64,000 nt of DNA from Pseudomonas urmiensis (lineage in GTDB: Bacteria > Pseudomonadota > Gammaproteobacteria > Pseudomonadales > Pseudomonadaceae). This document shows positions 923-14,716 of this stretch, piece by piece. The stretch covers positions 3,043,001-3,107,000 of the forward strand of contig NZ_JABWRE020000001.1 in NCBI RefSeq assembly GCF_014268815.2, written 5' to 3'. A program made the position numbers and the translations under genes. Every line of letters begins with the position of its first letter. Position 1 is the first letter of the stretch. The notes under the pieces are model-generated. The model was not told the origin of the DNA. It did no database searches and was given only the letters and a program-made list of their open reading frames with translations.

Positions 923-3535
923 TCAGCGCTTGTCTTCTACCTTCCACGCGTTGCCGTCGTAGAACGCCTTCCAACCCGTCGGCTTGCCATCGACCTCGGA
1001 CTGCACGTACTGCTCCTTGGTCTTACGGCTGTAGCGGATCACCGCCGGGCGACCTTCCGGATCCTTCTGCGGCGCTTCGCAGAGGAAGTGATACTTCGGA
1101 TCGATCTCGTGCTTGTGCGGGATGATTTCCATTACCAAGGGCGCACGCGTCTCGCGGTTTTTCGGGAACTGGCTGGCAGCCAGGAACAGCCCCGAAGCGC
1201 CGTCACGCAGCACGTAGGTGTCGTTGACCTTCTCGCACTTGAGCTCCGGCATATCCACCTTATCCATCTTCGGTGGCGCCGCTTCGCCGCTCTTGAGCAG
1301 CTTGCGGGTGTTCTTGCACGTAGGGTTGGTGCAGCCGAAGAACTTGCCGAAACGGCCAGTCTTGAGCTGCATCTCGCTGCCACACTTGTCGCACTCCAGG
1401 CTCGGCCCTTCGTAGCCCTTGATGCGGTAGCTGCCTTGCTCGATCTCGTAGCCGACGCAATCTGGGTTGTTACCGCAGATGTGCAGCTTGTGCTTCTCAT
1501 CGAGCAGGTAGGCATCCATCGCCGTGGCGCAAATCGGGCAGCGATGCTTGCCCAGCAGCACCCGCGACTCCGACTCACCTTCGTCGTCGGCGGCAATTTC
1601 GTCGCCTGGCACCAGGTTGACGGTAGCCTTGCAGCGCTCTTTAGGCGGCAGGCTGTAGCCTGAGCAGCCAAGGAACACGCCGGTGGAGGCGGTACGAATC
1701 ATCATCGGCCGGCCGCATTCCTTGCACGGAATGTTGGTCATGGTCGGCTGGTTGGCGCGCATGCCGTTTTCCGACGACTCGGCAGTCTGCAGCTTCTTGC
1801 TGAAGTCGCCATAGAACTCGTCGAGAACGTTCTTCCAGTCGCGCTCGCCCTGGGCGACGTCGTCGAGGTTTTCTTCCATGTCGGCGGTGAAGCCGTAGTC
1901 CATCAGGTTGGAGAAGCTCTCCGACAGACGCTCGGTGACGATGTCGCCCATCTTCTCGGAGTAGAAGCGGCGGTTATGCAGGGTCACATAGCCACGGTCC
2001 TGAATGGTGGAAATGATCGCCGCATAGGTCGATGGACGGCCAATGCCACGCTTTTCCATTTCCTTGACCAGGCTGGCTTCGGTAAAGCGCGCCGGCGGCT
2101 TGGTGAAGTGCTGGCTTGGGTCGAGCTTGATGAGCTTGAGCGCCTCGCCCTGGGCCATGTCCGGCAGCACATCGTCTTCGCCTGGCTTGCTCTGTTGCGG
2201 CAGCACCCGGGTGTAACCGTCGAACTTGAGGATACGGCCCTTGGCACGCAGCTCGAAGTCACCGGCGTTGACTGTGACGCTGGTGGACAGGTACTGCGCA
2301 GGCGGCATCTGGCAGGCCAGGAATTGGCGCCAGATCAACTCGTACAGACGCTCGGCGTCACGCTCCATGCCACTGAGCTTGGTGGGATGGGTGTTGACAT
2401 CGGAAGGACGAATCGCCTCGTGCGCCTCCTGGGCGCCTGCCTTGCTGCCGTACACGATCGGCGCTTCAGGCAGGTACTGCTTGCCGAATTCTTTCTCGAT
2501 GTAGCTGCGAGCCATGTCCACAGCGTCAGCCGACAGGTTGGTCGAGTCGGTACGCATGTAGGTGATGTAGCCGGCTTCGTACAAGCGCTGCGCCATCATC
2601 ATGGTCTTCTTCACGCCATAGCCCAGGCGATTGCTCGCGGCCTGCTGCAGGGTCGAGGTAATGAACGGCGCCGAAGGCTTGCTGCTGGTTGGCCGGTCTT
2701 CGCGCTTGGCCACGCTGTAGCTGGAGGCCTTGAGCTTGTCCAGGGCAGCCATGGCCTGGGCTTCGTTGAGCGGCTTGAAGGCTTCACCCTTCTCGCGCGC
2801 CACTTCGAAACGCACCTTGGCATCCTTGGCGGTGCCAAGGTCGGCGTGCACTTCCCAGTACTCTTCAGGGTTGAAGGCACGAATCTCGCGCTCACGCTCG
2901 ACCACCAGCTTGACCGCTACCGACTGCACGCGACCTGCCGACAGGCCGCGAGCGATCTTCGACCACAGCAGCGGCGAGACCATATAGCCCACGACGCGGT
3001 CGAGGAAGCGCCGTGCCTGCTGGGCGTTGACCCGGTCGATATCCAGCTCACCCGGCTGCGAGAACGCCTCCTGGATGGCTTTCTTGGTGATTTCGTTGAA
3101 CACCACGCGTTTGTAGCGAGTGTCGTCACCGCCGATGGCCTCACGCAGGTGCCAGGCAATCGCCTCCCCTTCGCGGTCCAAGTCGGTCGCGAGATAGATG
3201 GTGTCGGCATCTTTTGCCAAACGACGCAACTCGTCGATGACCTTTTCCTTGCCCGGCAGGATCTCGTACTTGGCCTTCCAGCCCGCATCCGGATCGACGC
3301 CCATACGCGCGACCAGCTGGCGCCGAGCCTTCTCTTTCGGCGACAAGGCCGGCGCCTCACCCGCTGCAGCCTTGCCACGCTTGGCCGCCGGCTCCTTACT
3401 GGTGCTGGCCGAACCGCTGGTGGGGAGGTCACGGATGTGGCCGATACTCGACTTCACCACGTACTGGCTGCCCAGGTACTTGTTGATGGTCTTGGCCTTG
3501 GCCGGGGATTCCACAATGACCAGCGATTTGCCCAT
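923..3535 (-). CDS. topA: DNA topoisomerase I
   Basis: A type IA topoisomerase of 870 residues that relaxes negative supercoils by cutting one strand. It starts [16 protein letters not shown], the canonical N-terminus; an upstream in-frame extension of 17 residues is ignored. The Toprim domain carries the metal-binding DLDREGE (residues 118-124). The catalytic tyrosine is in [10 protein letters not shown] (Tyr326). Three C-terminal zinc-ribbon modules follow, with CKECG...C, CPIC...CGNNPDC and CDKCG...CTNPTC pairs, then a further ribbon-like end. The length is usual for Pseudomonas. The insert after the first Toprim strand is shared with other gammaproteobacteria, so it is not an oddity. Confidence 0.98.
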
Positions 3536-3635
3536 GGATCGGAGTATTCCTGAATCTGAAAATGAAAAACGCGTCAGGTGCCGCACGCGGCACCGCTATA
3601 TATAGTGGCAACAGGGTGAGGTCAAGCGCAGTCGA

Positions 3636-3887
3636 CTAAGCCTGGTCTGCACCGGGATGCTCGAACCGCCCTTCTTCGGCCGTGACCAAAGCAAAGCGTG
3701 GCACCTGCTCGCCGTCAACCTCGACTGACTCCAGGAACATCGAAAGGGGTCGCACCCAAAGCCCGTAATCACCATACAGGCATTGGTAGAAGACTACCCA
3801 CTCTTCGCTTTCGGAGTGCCGCGCAGCGCCGAATACACGATACTCAGGGCCCTTGTAGTGGCGGTATACGCCTGGCTGTATGTGCAT
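3636..3887 (-). CDS. DUF1653 domain protein
   Basis: A small protein of 83 residues, MHIQPGVYRHYKGPEYRVFG at its start. The motif GxYRHYKGxxYxVxG and a later region with WVRPLSMFLE are typical of DUF1653 proteins. GAGGG lies before the ATG, which decides this start over an upstream one that would run into the fadA terminator. The protein is cytoplasmic and its function is unknown. It sits between topA and fadBA, as in other pseudomonads (PA3012-like, from memory). A terminator for fadBA stands about 40 bases upstream, so it may depend on read-through or on a promoter inside that short gap. Confidence 0.88.
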   Translation of the reverse strand: MHIQPGVYRHYKGPEYRVFGAARHSESEEWVVFYQCLYGDYGLWVRPLSMFLESVEVDGEQVPRFALVTAEEGRFEHPGADQA

Positions 3888-3925
3888 CTCGCTGACCCTC
3901 TTGAACAAATTCTGTAAAAAACAAA

Positions 3926-3948
3926 AACCGGGGCACATGGCCCCGGTT
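3926..3948 (-). terminator. Rho-independent terminator of fadBA
   Basis: The stem AACCGGGGC (3926-3934) pairs perfectly with GCCCCGGTT (3940-3948) around a 5-base loop. On the minus strand it is followed by TTTGTTTTTT. It lies 19 bases after the fadA stop. Confidence 0.85.
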
Positions 3949-3966
3949 GCTGCCTAGCGATCGCGA

Positions 3967-5157
<1,191 letters not shown>

Positions 5158-10856: not shown

Positions 10857-11072
10857 GATCATCTCCAAAAACTGGGCGCGCATTCTACCTGACTTGACCC
10901 TTGCCGGCATCAAGTCAACGCCAGTGGAAACGCTTTGCGACATCTGGTCGAACTTAACAGTTGGATACAAGCGCAGTGCTTTCACCGCCAGCGCGCAAAC
11001 GGCTAAGCTTACGCAATACAACAGTGCTGGCCTCGCCGTCACTTTCCCATGGTTCAACTGCCCGGACGTATC

Positions 11073-13001
11073 ATGCGCAGCCGCCTGTTACAGATTGCTT
11101 CTTGCCTGCTGATCACCGCCGCCACTGCCAGTGCGGCGCAGGCCGCCGACCTTACCCAGCAACGTCAGTACTACGACGAAGCCAAACGTGCGCTGGCCAA
11201 AGGTGACAAAGGCCCCTACCTGCGTTACTCGCAGGCCTTGCGTGACTATCCACTGACGCCCTACCTGGCCTATGACGAACTGACCGCCCGCCTGAAAAGC
11301 GCCAGCAACGAAGAAATCGAAGGTTTCCTCGCCAAGCACGGCGATCTGCCTCAAGCCAACTGGATGAAGTTACGTTGGCTGCGCTGGCTGTCCGAGCGCG
11401 GCGAATGGAACACGTTCGCCAAGTATTACGACCCCAAGCTCAACTTCACCGAACTGGACTGCATCAATGGCCAGTATCAGCTCAGCCATGGCAAACGCGC
11501 CGAAGGCTTTGCCAGCGCCGAAAAACTGTGGAACGTCGGCAAGTCGCAACCGGCGGCCTGCGACACTCTGTTCGCGATGTGGGCAGCCGAAGGCCAACTG
11601 ACCGAGGCCAAGCGCTGGGAACGCGCCAAGCTTGCTGCCCAAACGCGTAACTACGCCCTGGCCAACAGCTTGGTAAAGACCCTGACCTCCCTCTCCCCGC
11701 AAGGCAAACTGCTGATCGATGTGGCGCAAAAGCCCGAGCTGCTCAACCAGCCTTCGCGCTTTACCCCGGTCAATGAAGCGATGTCCGACGTGGTCAGCCT
11801 GGGCCTGCGCCGGCTCGCTCGCCAAAACCCTGAACGGGCCATGGCCTTGCTCGATGACTACGCCCAGCGCATGCACTTCTCGCGCGACGAAAAGGTCGCC
11901 ATCGCTCGCGAAATCGGCTTGACCCTGGCGCGCCGCTACGACCCACGCGCACTGGACTTGATGACCCGCTACGATCCTGAGCTGCGCGATAACACCGTCA
12001 GCGAATGGCGCCTGCGCCTACTGCTGCGTCTGGGTCGTTGGGAAGAAGCTTACGAACTGACCAAGCGCCTGCCCCAAGACCTGGCCAGCAGCAGCCGCTG
12101 GCGCTACTGGCAGGCCCGTAGCCTGGAGCTCGCCCAGCCGAACAACCCGCAGATCCCGCTGCTGTACAAGACCGTGGCTCGTGAGCGCGACTTCTATGGC
12201 TTCCTTGCAGCCGATCGGGCGCAGACGCCTTATCAGCTGAACAACAGGCCGCTGGTGCCGAGCCCGCAGCTGGTCAACAAGGTGCGTAATACCCCAGGTA
12301 TCCGTCGCGCGCTGGAATTCCATGCGCGCGGCCAGATCGTTGAGGGGCGCCGTGAGTGGTACCACGTCAGTCGGCACTTCAACCGTGACGAGATGGTCGC
12401 CCAGGCGCGCCTGGCGTACGACTTGCGCTGGTACTTCCCGGCCATTCGCACCATTAGCCAGGCGCAGTACTGGGACGACCTGGACATCCGCTTCCCGATG
12501 GCACACCGCGATACCCTGGTGCGTGAGGCCAAGGTCCGTGGCCTGCACTCCAGCTGGGTGTTTGCCATTACCCGGCAGGAAAGTGCCTTCATGGAAGATG
12601 CTCGATCTCCGGTGGGTGCCAGCGGCCTGATGCAGTTGATGCCGGCCACGGCCAAGGAAACTGCGCGCAAGTTCAGTATTCCACTGGCCTCACCCTCGCA
12701 GGTGCTTAATCCGGACAAGAACATTCAGCTGGGTGCGGCTTATTTGAGCCAGGTGCATGGGCAGTTCAATGGCAACCGGGTGTTGGCCTCGGCGGCCTAC
12801 AACGCTGGGCCTGGGCGGGTGCGGCAGTGGCTCAAGGGGGCCAAGCATTTGAGTTTCGATGTTTGGGTTGAGTCGATTCCATTCGATGAGACGCGCCAAT
12901 ATGTGCAGAACGTGCTGTCTTATTCGGTGATTTATGGGCAGAAGCTGAATTCGCCGCAGCCTTTGGTGGATTGGCATGAGCGGTATTTTGACGATATGTG
13001 A
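11073..13001 (+). CDS. slt: Soluble lytic murein transglycosylase
   Basis: A periplasmic 642-residue enzyme that cleaves peptidoglycan glycan strands to 1,6-anhydromuropeptides. A signal peptide is seen (MRSRLLQIASCLLITAATAS, cleaved near AQAA). A long superhelical alpha-domain follows, then the C-terminal SLT domain with the catalytic glutamate in TRQESAFMED, and GASGLMQLMPATA and ASAAYNAGPGRV. An ATG 24 bases earlier is possible but would break the signal peptide. The last 300 bases use noticeably more G- and T-ending codons than the rest. Confidence 0.95.
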   Translation: MRSRLLQIASCLLITAATASAAQAADLTQQRQYYDEAKRALAKGDKGPYLRYSQALRDYPLTPYLAYDELTARLKSASNEEIEGFLAKHGDLPQANWMKLRWLRWLSERGEWNTFAKYYDPKLNFTELDCINGQYQLSHGKRAEGFASAEKLWNVGKSQPAACDTLFAMWAAEGQLTEAKRWERAKLAAQTRNYALANSLVKTLTSLSPQGKLLIDVAQKPELLNQPSRFTPVNEAMSDVVSLGLRRLARQNPERAMALLDDYAQRMHFSRDEKVAIAREIGLTLARRYDPRALDLMTRYDPELRDNTVSEWRLRLLLRLGRWEEAYELTKRLPQDLASSSRWRYWQARSLELAQPNNPQIPLLYKTVARERDFYGFLAADRAQTPYQLNNRPLVPSPQLVNKVRNTPGIRRALEFHARGQIVEGRREWYHVSRHFNRDEMVAQARLAYDLRWYFPAIRTISQAQYWDDLDIRFPMAHRDTLVREAKVRGLHSSWVFAITRQESAFMEDARSPVGASGLMQLMPATAKETARKFSIPLASPSQVLNPDKNIQLGAAYLSQVHGQFNGNRVLASAAYNAGPGRVRQWLKGAKHLSFDVWVESIPFDETRQYVQNVLSYSVIYGQKLNSPQPLVDWHERYFDDM

Positions 13002-13064
13002 GGGGGGGCTTGGGCTTTTAGAGACTTGAGCTTATCCATTTGAGGGGGCGGCGCTACTGGCCCC

Positions 13065-13292
13065 TTCCGCCCTTACGGCGGCCTACTTTGGTCTTGGCCA
13101 AAGTAGGCAAAGCCGCTCGCTCCTGCATACGGCCCTACGCTGCGCTTCGGGTCCCTTCGCGCCGGCGCCTTCCGGGCCCGCGCGGCCTACGATTTGCTGC
13201 GCAAATCTACATCTCGCGCCTTCGGCTACGCCGAAGGGTGCTAGCGCACCTGGCCCTCCAGACGCCTCTGCTCAGCCTCCTGAAGTCGCGAA
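13065..13292. repeat. Left arm of a large inverted repeat
   Basis: 228 bases that are matched in inverse by 13519-13751. The block 13167-13242 (76 bases) is identical to the complement of 13569-13644. Inside it lie two smaller dyads, GATTTGC/GCAAATC and CCTTCGGC/GCCGAAGG. The outer end (13065-13081) also matches exactly. A further dyad, GCCTACTTTGG/CCAAAGTAGGC, is present only in this arm. Confidence 0.9.
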
Positions 13293-13351
13293 TCTGCGGC
13301 GTCTGAACCTGCGTGCACGAACATCAAGAGCAGGCGAATCGCTGCGCTCTC

Positions 13352-13393
13352 GCCAAAGCCAAAGCCAAAGCCAAAGCCAAAGCCAAAGCCAAA
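13352..13393. repeat. Tandem hexamer array, seven copies of GCCAAA
   Basis: Seven perfect head-to-tail copies of GCCAAA, followed at once by a T-rich stretch. The array lies in the centre between the two arms of the large inverted repeat. A unit of 6 bases keeps any reading frame open, which explains the low-complexity frames across it. Confidence 0.97.
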
Positions 13394-13422
13394 TTTTGAT
13401 TTTTCTGTTTTGTGTTGTTTGT

Positions 13423-13460
13423 TCTGGCCTCTTCGCGGGCAAGCCCGCGAAGAGGCCAGA
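13423..13460. repeat. Perfect REP palindrome
   Basis: 18-base arms (TCTGGCCTCTTCGCGGGC and its complement) separated by AA. The core CTTCGCGGGCAAGCCCGCGAAG is the Pseudomonas REP type. It is the most symmetrical REP in the window and sits almost exactly in the centre of the large inverted repeat. Confidence 0.9.
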
Positions 13461-13518
13461 GCATCCACCACACCTGTCACTATCGGCAGATAACGCCAGG
13501 CCAGGCGCCGCCACTAAC

Positions 13519-13751
13519 TTCGCGACTTCAGGAGGCCGAGCGTAGGTGTCTGGAGGGCCAGGTGCGTCAGCACCCTTCGGCGTAGCCGAAGGCGCGAGAT
13601 GTAGATTTGCGCAGCAAATCGTAGGCCGCGCGGGCCCGGAAGGCACCGAAGCGAGGGGACCCGAAGCGCAGCGTAGGGCCGGATGGTGGAGCGCAGACCT
13701 TTTGGTTACTTTTGGGGCGACTGCCAAAAGTGACCCGCCGTAAGGGCGGAA
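13519..13751. repeat. Right arm of a large inverted repeat
   Basis: 233 bases matching the left arm (13065-13292) in inverse. The match is exact over 13569-13644, at the inner end (13519-13536) and at the outer end (13735-13751). In between it diverges by substitutions and small indels. The stretch around 13700-13730 has its own small dyad of TTTTGG/CCAAAA type. Confidence 0.9.
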
Positions 13752-13848
13752 AGGTGCCTAAATGCCACCATCGCGAATGGATAATCACACAAAACACAGG
13801 AAATCAGGAAATCAGCATGGATATCTCATAACGCGAGAACCCCCGAAC

Positions 13849-14652
13849 CTACTCAAGCACCTCAACCCCCATCCCAACCGCAATCTCCCCCGCCCCATCC
13901 GCAGCCAGATTCTGCCCAAACAGCACATCCCCCTCCCGCTCCCGAAACGTCTTCAGCGTCGCCAAAGGCTCCCGATCGGCACTACGCTCCCCCGTCCCAG
14001 GATCAAGCGTAGTCAGAATGCACCGCACACTAGGCTTGAGCACCCGAAAGGTCAGATCACCAATACGAATCCGCTTCCAGCCATCCTCGGCAAAAGGCTC
14101 AGCCCCCTGCACCACCAGGTTCGGCCGAAACCGCAGCATTTCCATGTCCCGGCCAATCCGCCGATTCAGCTCATCGAGCGAGCCCTGCCCAATCAGCAAC
14201 AACGGAAAGCCATCCGGAAACGCCGCCCGATCACTGTTCAGTCCATACCCGCTCGGCAGGTAGCGTGCACGCTGCTGCGGGCAGTACACCAGGCGTACCG
14301 GCTTGCCGAGCAACTCACTGAGCCAAGCCGCTGCCGCATCGCCGGCATCCGGCACGCGCAAGGTGTCACGCCAGATAGTCACCCCGCGCAGGTCGTCATC
14401 CACGCCCGGCACAGCCACTTCCAGCGGCATCTGCCCAGGCGTTTGAAGCAGCAACTGCCCCGTCGGGCCAAGGCTGGCTTCAAGCTGCGTCAGCCGCGGC
14501 CAGGCCCGCTGGGTAAGAAAGCGGCCATTGGACTCTTCCACCACCAGCCAACGCCGATCACCCTGCAACCCCAGCAGATCTACTGCGCTGGTCACCAGGC
14601 TTTGCGCCTGACACGACTTCACCGGATACCGATACAACGCACTCAGAAACAT
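13849..14652 (-). CDS. MOSC domain protein (YcbX-like)
   Basis: A protein of 267 residues with the MOSC N-terminal beta-barrel (start MFLSALYRYPVKSCQAQSL) and a C-terminal MOSC domain. The conserved cysteine region reads FRVLKPSVRCILTTLDP. MOSC proteins carry a molybdenum cofactor and work in sulfur or N-hydroxylated compound reduction; E. coli YcbX detoxifies N-hydroxylated bases. The substrate here is unknown. Another ATG 15 bases upstream is also possible; neither has a strong ribosome site. The 3' third of the gene shows the same G/T-rich coding-strand bias as the end of slt. Confidence 0.85.
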   Translation of the reverse strand: MFLSALYRYPVKSCQAQSLVTSAVDLLGLQGDRRWLVVEESNGRFLTQRAWPRLTQLEASLGPTGQLLLQTPGQMPLEVAVPGVDDDLRGVTIWRDTLRVPDAGDAAAAWLSELLGKPVRLVYCPQQRARYLPSGYGLNSDRAAFPDGFPLLLIGQGSLDELNRRIGRDMEMLRFRPNLVVQGAEPFAEDGWKRIRIGDLTFRVLKPSVRCILTTLDPGTGERSADREPLATLKTFREREGDVLFGQNLAADGAGEIAVGMGVEVLE

Positions 14653-14716
14653 CCCTGCCCGCCTCATGCCAGTCGAAAACGCCTAGCTTATACCCGGCGG
14701 GCGGCGCGCGCAGTGC

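Follow-up and report, generated by a model that had tools for sequence, protein, structure and literature searches.

The inverted-repeat locus between slt and a MOSC-domain gene of Pseudomonas urmiensis belongs to a non-coding family dispersed over Pseudomonas chromosomes, whose unit of copying has two arms and a REP sequence at its centre. It lies within a mirrored compositional halo, in which the strand running 5' to 3' into the element loses C (to T, and at recJ also to G) on both sides. The loss extends for some 600-800 bp and falls mostly on third positions of codons. Comparison with element-free relatives suggests that the halo follows insertion at slt and recJ, the two loci compared. 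Our best reading, to which we assign a probability of roughly 0.45, is chronic breakage at the element, followed by resection and mutation of the exposed 3' strands.

The features of the locus are listed below, with positions counted within the window, that is, the whole stretch of 64,000 nucleotides analyzed.

11049..13001, + strand: flanking gene slt, lytic transglycosylase (SLT domain)
12600..13030, + strand: left halo in skew, C-poor + strand, covering the 3' part of slt (the excess of C>T reaches about 800 bp from the slt end)
13002..13030, + strand: G/T-rich flank with two GGGCTT units, adjoining the left end
13031..13785, no strand: whole inverted-repeat element, from outer edge to outer edge of the terminal motifs (end alignment)
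13031..13066, + strand: left terminal segment, family motif CTTATCCATTTG...CCCCTT (compared with ends of other copies)
13067..13081, + strand: 15-bp near-palindrome CCGCCCTTACGGCGG, outer end of the left arm
13082..13107, + strand: left-arm hairpin CCTACTTTGG..CCAAAGTAGG (sequence, RNA fold)
13118..13292, + strand: inner left arm, 175 bp (repeat search, arm alignment)
13167..13242, + strand: 76-bp block, conserved family core with two dyads (arm alignment)
13293..13518, no strand: centre, 226 bp, with GCCAAA tandem repeats (13352-13393) and a REP palindrome (13424-13459)
13519..13693, - strand: inner right arm, 175 bp (repeat search, arm alignment)
13569..13644, - strand: 76-bp block, inverse copy (arm alignment)
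13704..13735, - strand: right-arm hairpin GGTTACTTTTGG..CCAAAAGTGACC (sequence, RNA fold)
13735..13749, - strand: 15-bp near-palindrome, outer end of the right arm
13750..13785, - strand: right terminal segment (end comparison)
13786..13848, - strand: flank with a short tandem repeat (TGATTTCC on the - strand), adjoining the right end
13786..14600, - strand: right halo, C-poor - strand, covering most of the MOSC gene
13849..14667, - strand: flanking gene, MOSC-domain protein

The inverted repeat is real: the inner arms (13118-13292 and 13519-13693) are 175 nt long, 93% complementary and 226 nt apart, while an outer pairing between 13027-13089 and 13727-13789 is weaker (71%). Alignment also bears out that the two 76-bp blocks are identical in inverse orientation, each with two dyads, GATTTGCTGCGCAAATC and CCTTCGGCTACGCCGAAGG. 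The original prediction had drawn arms from 13065 to 13751 that match exactly at their outer and inner ends and drift in between. The inverted arms stand, but the conserved element is longer, from about 13031 to 13785, with a TATCC terminal motif outside the arms, and the pattern of drift needs correction, since the outer third is the most divergent part and the left and right hairpins differ (13082-13107 and 13704-13735). In the aligned ends, the order from the end inward is the TATCC terminal motif, found at both ends of the element, then CCGCCCTTACGGCGG, one of two kinds of hairpin, and the inner arm. The predicted RNA fold of 13031-13785 is a single long hairpin of -586.9 kcal/mol, an energy given without a shuffle baseline. 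None of the 11 Rfam matches in 12500-14500 reached its gathering score, so that the locus was not placed in a structured RNA family, and neither of the two ORFs in the element matched a Pfam family. A hairpin or cruciform would fit the flanking halo.

The left arm (13030-13300) has at least 34 BLAST matches in the 5.79-Mb genome of P. urmiensis, a lower bound as 40 of 53 candidates were scored, and the best non-self match is 96% identical (E 2.8e-124). This recurrence rules out chance as the origin of the inverted repeat; nor is the block unique to the locus, as 11 loci carry both arms. Seventeen regions around arm matches were fetched, and 26 arms, each with a core of at least 150 bp, were aligned; the 76-bp core is common to 24 of them with few differences. 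In 10 of the 11 two-armed loci, the left and the right arm each keep a fixed signature of their own, which makes the two-armed element the unit copied, and arm identity within an element (0.877-0.948) is like that between elements (mean 0.889, sd 0.111). Gene conversion between arms, offered earlier as one explanation of the exact matches, is thus unneeded and receives no support from this alignment. The central part of the copies holds GCCAAA repeats plus a REP or a REP pair. A strict search for the terminal pattern gave four matches in this genome, all at elements, and was insensitive, missing the ends of the window's own copy.

Some copies show features of their own. The copy at L040 has an IS3-family transposase gene inserted in its central REP (3403-4604), and ORFs in the left arm at L037 (2931-4132) have the same lengths as this insert, a likeness by length only. 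Directly downstream of rpoS there is an element that belongs to a different arm subfamily (L045, G000:C1:557001-564000, positions 3128-3904). The 34 listed arm matches all fall within 0.39-3.65 Mb of the 5.58-Mb main contig, with none listed in the other 2.3 Mb.

We fetched 29 relatives at slt, of which 13 had a recognizable MOSC gene in the locus, and read the gap in eight. The slt-MOSC gap is 49-133 bp in these eight and 847 bp here; by this comparison the element is an insertion, and the empty sites that the original prediction had proposed to look for do exist. The flanks of the filled site are too altered for a target-site duplication to be sought by aligning them by eye against the empty ones. 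With its many copies, no recognized gene of its own and an empty site in relatives, the element supports the earlier suggestion of a dispersed non-autonomous element; in being scattered in many copies that lack their own transposase gene, it shows one of the features of a MITE. In G003 (L050), a diverged inverted element of the same plan follows slt, and this gene end may have been hit twice.

The family is widespread in the genus. Arm matches at E <= 0.001 occur in 104 of 199 sampled genomes, with 66 in G091, 60 in G104, 54 in G156 and 45 in G015, and the exact 26-base core pattern was found in 31 stretches of named records, all Pseudomonas, with P. wadenswilerensis, P. donghuensis, P. japonica, P. 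huaxiensis and P. viridiflava among the hosts. Searches of 72,556 records of plasmids and 50,697 of phages gave no match; records close to the P. urmiensis genome may be absent from these sets. In G104, G091 and G190, arms also occur with their outer ends facing, as inverted repeats of 595-667 bp between inner-end markers (L155-L162, L165-L167, L169, L170, L172, L176, L177, L180, L181).

The halo was read along the strand running 5' to 3' toward the element. Over 28 ends, between a distance of 1 kb and the final 25 bp, the share of C drops from 0.31 to 0.09 and that of A from 0.18 to 0.11, whereas G rises from 0.32 to 0.41 and T from 0.19 to 0.39. The gradient fades across 600-800 bp and is mirrored, lying on the + strand on the left and on the - strand on the right, and the GC skew toward the end is positive at all 28 ends in the first 25 bp. 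This set includes one end inside a double element (L037 4353), and a few ends were missed by the motif; the tandem-repeat and Chi analysis used a list of 28 ends, and the analyses of transcription direction, replichore and codon position a list of 29. At the window's copy, keto excess at 0-100, 100-400 and 400-800 bp is 0.34, 0.12 and 0.01 on the left and 0.50, 0.29 and 0.18 on the right, the left halo being the shorter. The third codon position carries the halo, with a keto excess of 0.68 as against 0.07 at position 2 in own-genome genes pointing at an element. Exceptions in this genome are the weak flhA side, the weak L046 and a partial arm at L038 10937 without a halo; flhA, which is transcribed away, shows a weak effect in both species with the element there.

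Short tandem repeats also mark the ends. Perfect arrays of at least three units of 5-9 bp were found within 220 bp of 11 of the 28 ends, compared with two arrays in 400 kb of control sequence. The units vary among many copies (GGGCTT, TTGGGG, TTTCTTGG and others), and some copies share one. A (GTGTT)16 tandem array at L233:15234 has no halo around it.

In a blind scan of 464 kb for mirrored skew, the window's element ranked first, narrowly, with 0.33 against 0.32 for the runner-up, a site with no long inverted repeat. REP sequences were considered as a cause of the halo and are not supported as such, since 29 element-free REP clusters (of 32 found) have no halo. At L047, termini and a REP pair remain without arms and the halo is kept, which we read as a collapsed element. 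The 176 gene 5' ends likewise have no halo, with a keto excess of about 0.01 on average.

Transcription might make the halo if nontemplate strands of convergent genes are exposed where RNA polymerase stalls at the element. As the original prediction had noted for this locus, a site between convergent 3' ends is common, with 19 of 29 own-genome ends facing a gene 3' end, but it is not general, the other 10 facing a gene transcribed away (gene neighbours and controls are from our own simple ORF caller). At 19 element-side gene 3' ends, the GC skew is 0.43, 0.35, 0.26 and 0.16 in successive bins to 400 bp. The halo is somewhat stronger toward genes than away (0.211 vs 0.154 at 100-400 bp), and within coding sequence the third-position keto excess of the first 150 bp is 0.68 toward and 0.28 away, both as stalled transcription would have it. 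Yet the 10 away-facing ends also show the halo, nine of them being positive at 100-200 bp and nine at 200-400 bp (p = 7e-4 against random points; p = 1e-10 for the toward ends), where transcription leading outward from the element should, by our reasoning, yield the opposite sign. Moreover, 162 convergent control gene 3' ends without an element, from 464 kb of the same genome, have a GC skew of at most 0.11 and no halo, and we therefore consider transcription a distinctly unlikely cause.

Replication offers another route to the same strand, given that the strand running toward the element would be the lagging-strand template for a fork arriving from that side and might stay single-stranded when the fork halts there. 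Fork stalling predicts, however, a halo on one side according to replichore, and the left and right ends are alike in both replichores. These were inferred from GC skew in a sample of 20 regions, and the comparison omits three ends close to the inferred terminus. In the first 100 bp, keto excess is 0.48 on the left and 0.58 on the right in the first replichore (8 and 9 ends) and 0.43 and 0.44 in the second (4 and 5 ends); at 100-400 bp the corresponding values are 0.21 and 0.16, and 0.24 and 0.26. An effect of fork direction is thus unsupported, and fork stalling appears very unlikely.

Comparison of filled sites with element-free relatives bears on the order of events. In the last 400 bp of slt, C>T occurred at 18 of 101 C sites conserved in four element-free relatives, whereas G>A occurred at 2 of 98; C>T falls to 8 of 116 at 400-800 bp and stands at 20 of 321 farther away, with G>A at 11 of 251. 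One control relative had no C>T in the last 400 bp. The slt changes are mainly C>T (18 vs 2). At recJ, the keto excess at third positions in the four species with the element (G000, G025, G127, G190) amounts to 0.65-0.82 over the last 100 bp, 0.64-0.76 at 100-200 bp and 0.27-0.45 at 400-600 bp, whereas the averages of 11 species with no element detected are 0.09 and -0.01 in the two nearest bins; an element was taken as absent when no arm matched at 1e-4 over a distance of 1300 bp, a threshold that a diverged element could escape. Ten of these 11 have at most 0.35 and 0.15, the exception being G045 with 0.76 and 0.27. Third-position C in the last 300 bp of recJ is 0.14 with the element (4 species) and 0.376 without (10 counted); G003, with 599 bases, was omitted from this count and may be out of frame in the keto comparison. 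Changes at recJ include about as many C>T as C>G and few from G, in four element species that share descent and are not independent.

The skewed recJ end of G045, with no element detected, is what would be expected if the element preferred to insert at sites already skewed. The other element-free orthologous sites, at slt and in 10 of 11 species at recJ, are little skewed, and such a preference seems extremely improbable. Neither it, nor transcription or fork direction alone, fits as well as breakage.

Chronic breakage would act as follows. The inverted repeat would fold into a hairpin or cruciform, mainly while single-stranded in replication, and the folded repeat would be cut repeatedly, with SbcCD as the natural candidate nuclease. 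Resection of the 5' ends would leave the 3'-ended strands adjoining the element single-stranded, and cytosine damage together with imperfect refilling would alter them, while slippage in the course of this repair could give rise to the terminal short tandem repeats. With the sister chromosome as its template, repair would retain the element in place. The direction of the halo, in which the affected strands are those that end 3' at the element, is that of resected double-strand-break ends. A precedent comes from E. coli, where an interrupted palindrome of 246 bp, introduced by engineering, folds when it is on the lagging-strand template; SbcCD cuts it in each cycle, yet it is not lost (PMC4213011, PMC3315005), and the natural elements might behave in the same way at a lower rate. 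Rifampicin-resistance mutation was not raised there by chronic breakage at the palindrome (PMC4213011), a measure that does not address the flanks of the break site. Weighing most against breakage are the halos at single arms, which are the main difficulty, and the C>G changes at recJ, which are about as common as C>T and exceed what plain deamination predicts; the weak or missing halos noted for this genome, the skewed G045 end and the E. coli rifampicin result count against it as well.

These C>G changes would suit selection rather than mutation, with a fragile site favouring G/T-rich 3'-ended strands, whether RecA-favoured or Chi-like, for efficient repair. RecA prefers GT-rich DNA. Selection of this kind has the correct orientation for 3' overhangs, accounts for the rise of G along with T, and fits the loss of recJ C to G as often as to T as a selection for keto bases. 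Neither GCTGGTGG nor GCTGGCGC, the Chi sequence of Pseudomonas (PMC5959072), is enriched within 300 bp of the 28 ends, where each has one copy on the toward strand, and both the smooth decay and the third-position bias look mutational. We accordingly regard selection as rather unlikely.

The halo is repeated in G024 (10 ends), G025 (9) and G036 (6), is confined mainly to the first 100 bp at the five G015 ends, and is hardly visible in G156 (2 ends). G104 and G091 show none by the outer-end measure, because their outer ends mostly face the partner arm. Outside the whole inverted repeat of this facing form (18 elements with 36 ends in G104, G091 and G190), the halo is 0.22, 0.13, 0.14 and 0.11 at 50-100, 100-200, 200-400 and 400-600 bp; it is positive at 31 of 36 ends at 200-400 bp and at 32 of 36 at 400-600 bp, and at only 23 of 36 in the first 50 bp.

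The pairing of the arms matters for the choice of mechanism. Over nine genomes, at 100-200, 200-400 and 400-600 bp, paired ends (n = 54) average 0.25, 0.14 and 0.09, ends without a good inverted partner (n = 19) 0.15, 0.09 and 0.09, and the latter without four facing-form G091 ends (n = 15) 0.18, 0.11 and 0.10. As the halo is also present at unpaired ends, arm pairing is not strictly required, unless the single arms have lost their partners, and a strict need for an inverted partner is unsupported. The outer end of a transposon, with a directional nick or replication step of its own, might instead make the halo, the inverted pairing being incidental. The termini are conserved, the 15 unpaired ends (four genomes) nearly equal the paired ones beyond 200 bp, and five single arms in G036 have a halo outside their outer end and no consistent one on their inner side. 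This account does not readily explain why elements whose outer ends are turned inward (G104, G091, G190) have the halo outside the whole inverted repeat, and no partner transposase was found in the Y1 family, the one searched: its two matches in the P. urmiensis genome (PF01797, at 5.29 and 5.45 Mb) lie away from the listed arms, and G015 has none. A transposon-end origin therefore seems unlikely.

Breakage by SbcCD leads one to ask about the distribution of the nuclease. Of 59 genomes of the genus, 56 have SbcD, that of P. urmiensis among them; by model TIGR00619 it is absent from G013, G028, G054 and G148, three of which have arm-like matches. SbcD-negative ends (18, in three genomes) have 0.06, 0.003 and 0.01, compared with 0.25, 0.14 and 0.09 for SbcD-positive ends (71, in eight genomes), the contrast at 200-400 bp being 0.003 vs 0.143. 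Taken end by end, this contrast has p values of 1e-4 to 2e-3; taken genome by genome, it does not reach significance (p = 0.14, 8 vs 3, 200-400 bp). It used 71 of 96 end rows, omitting one inner duplicate (L037 + 4389), two inner G156 ends (L213) and 22 facing-form ends (8 in G104, 10 in G091 and 4 in G190). G156, G104 and G015 are SbcD-positive yet have little halo at 200-400 bp. The contrast points toward SbcCD as a possible agent, confounded as it is by ancestry and element subfamily.

We tentatively propose, with clearly less than even confidence, the broader view that natural elements in many Pseudomonas chromosomes are chronic break sites, at which SbcCD-dependent cutting and 3' exposure write a mirror-symmetric mutational halo into neighbouring genes, for instance at the synonymous sites of recJ, over hundreds of bases. 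Repeats of this sort are usually regarded as inert sequence between genes; this family is linked to a strong, directional and far-reaching change in adjoining coding DNA, one that accompanies the element at both loci compared with relatives. If chronic breakage were the cause, natural genomes would hold many long-running experiments on local mutagenesis at inverted repeats, the local mutagenicity of bacterial break repair could be tested by sequence comparison, and the halos would preserve over evolutionary time a trace of how often each site breaks, in a form that needs nothing but sequence to read. Irrespective of the cause, neither codon use nor skew close to these elements should be taken as gene-level selection.

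A literature search restricted to open-licence full texts found no description of the element or its halo, and the nearest known systems each share some of its features. In P. fluorescens, R178 and R200 are intergenic repeats of 101 and 320 bp with tens of copies; the same source reports a tail-to-tail bias for repeats and calls some of them MITE-like (PMC2718517). R178 and R200 resemble our family as dispersed Pseudomonas repeats, compared here by description and not by consensus sequence, but the part of that source consulted describes for them neither long paired arms, nor a halo in the flanks, nor tandem repeats at the termini (PMC2718517).

REPINs and REPs mobilized by RAYT are likewise non-autonomous, chromosomal and palindromic, and a REP lies in the centre of this element (PMC3116915, PMC3733652). 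Unlike REPINs, the element is about 755 bp long with non-REP arms of about 230 bp, and REP clusters alone have no halo; in place of two inverted REPs forming the unit, REP makes up the central part only and the arms are another sequence. TIRtrons and the TIR repeats of tyrosine transposases share the long inverted repeats and the dispersed families, with Pseudomonas among their hosts (PMC3733652). TIRtron arms flank a Y1 tyrosine transposase gene, whereas the arms in the P. urmiensis genome have no such gene adjoining them, and G015 has the repeat with no Y1 match.

Vertebrate mitochondrial DNA carries deamination gradients, in which strand-specific C>T scales with the time spent single-stranded. 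The halo is similar in its strand-specific C>T and differs in being centred on dispersed repeats, in being mirrored and in the C>G at recJ. As for the E. coli palindrome cut by SbcCD, it is engineered and 246 bp long, whereas our element has a 226-bp spacer, imperfect arms and a cutting that is presumed; by analogy, we propose it as a working model for the family, both being chromosomal interrupted inverted repeats that would persist as break sites (PMC4213011, PMC3315005).
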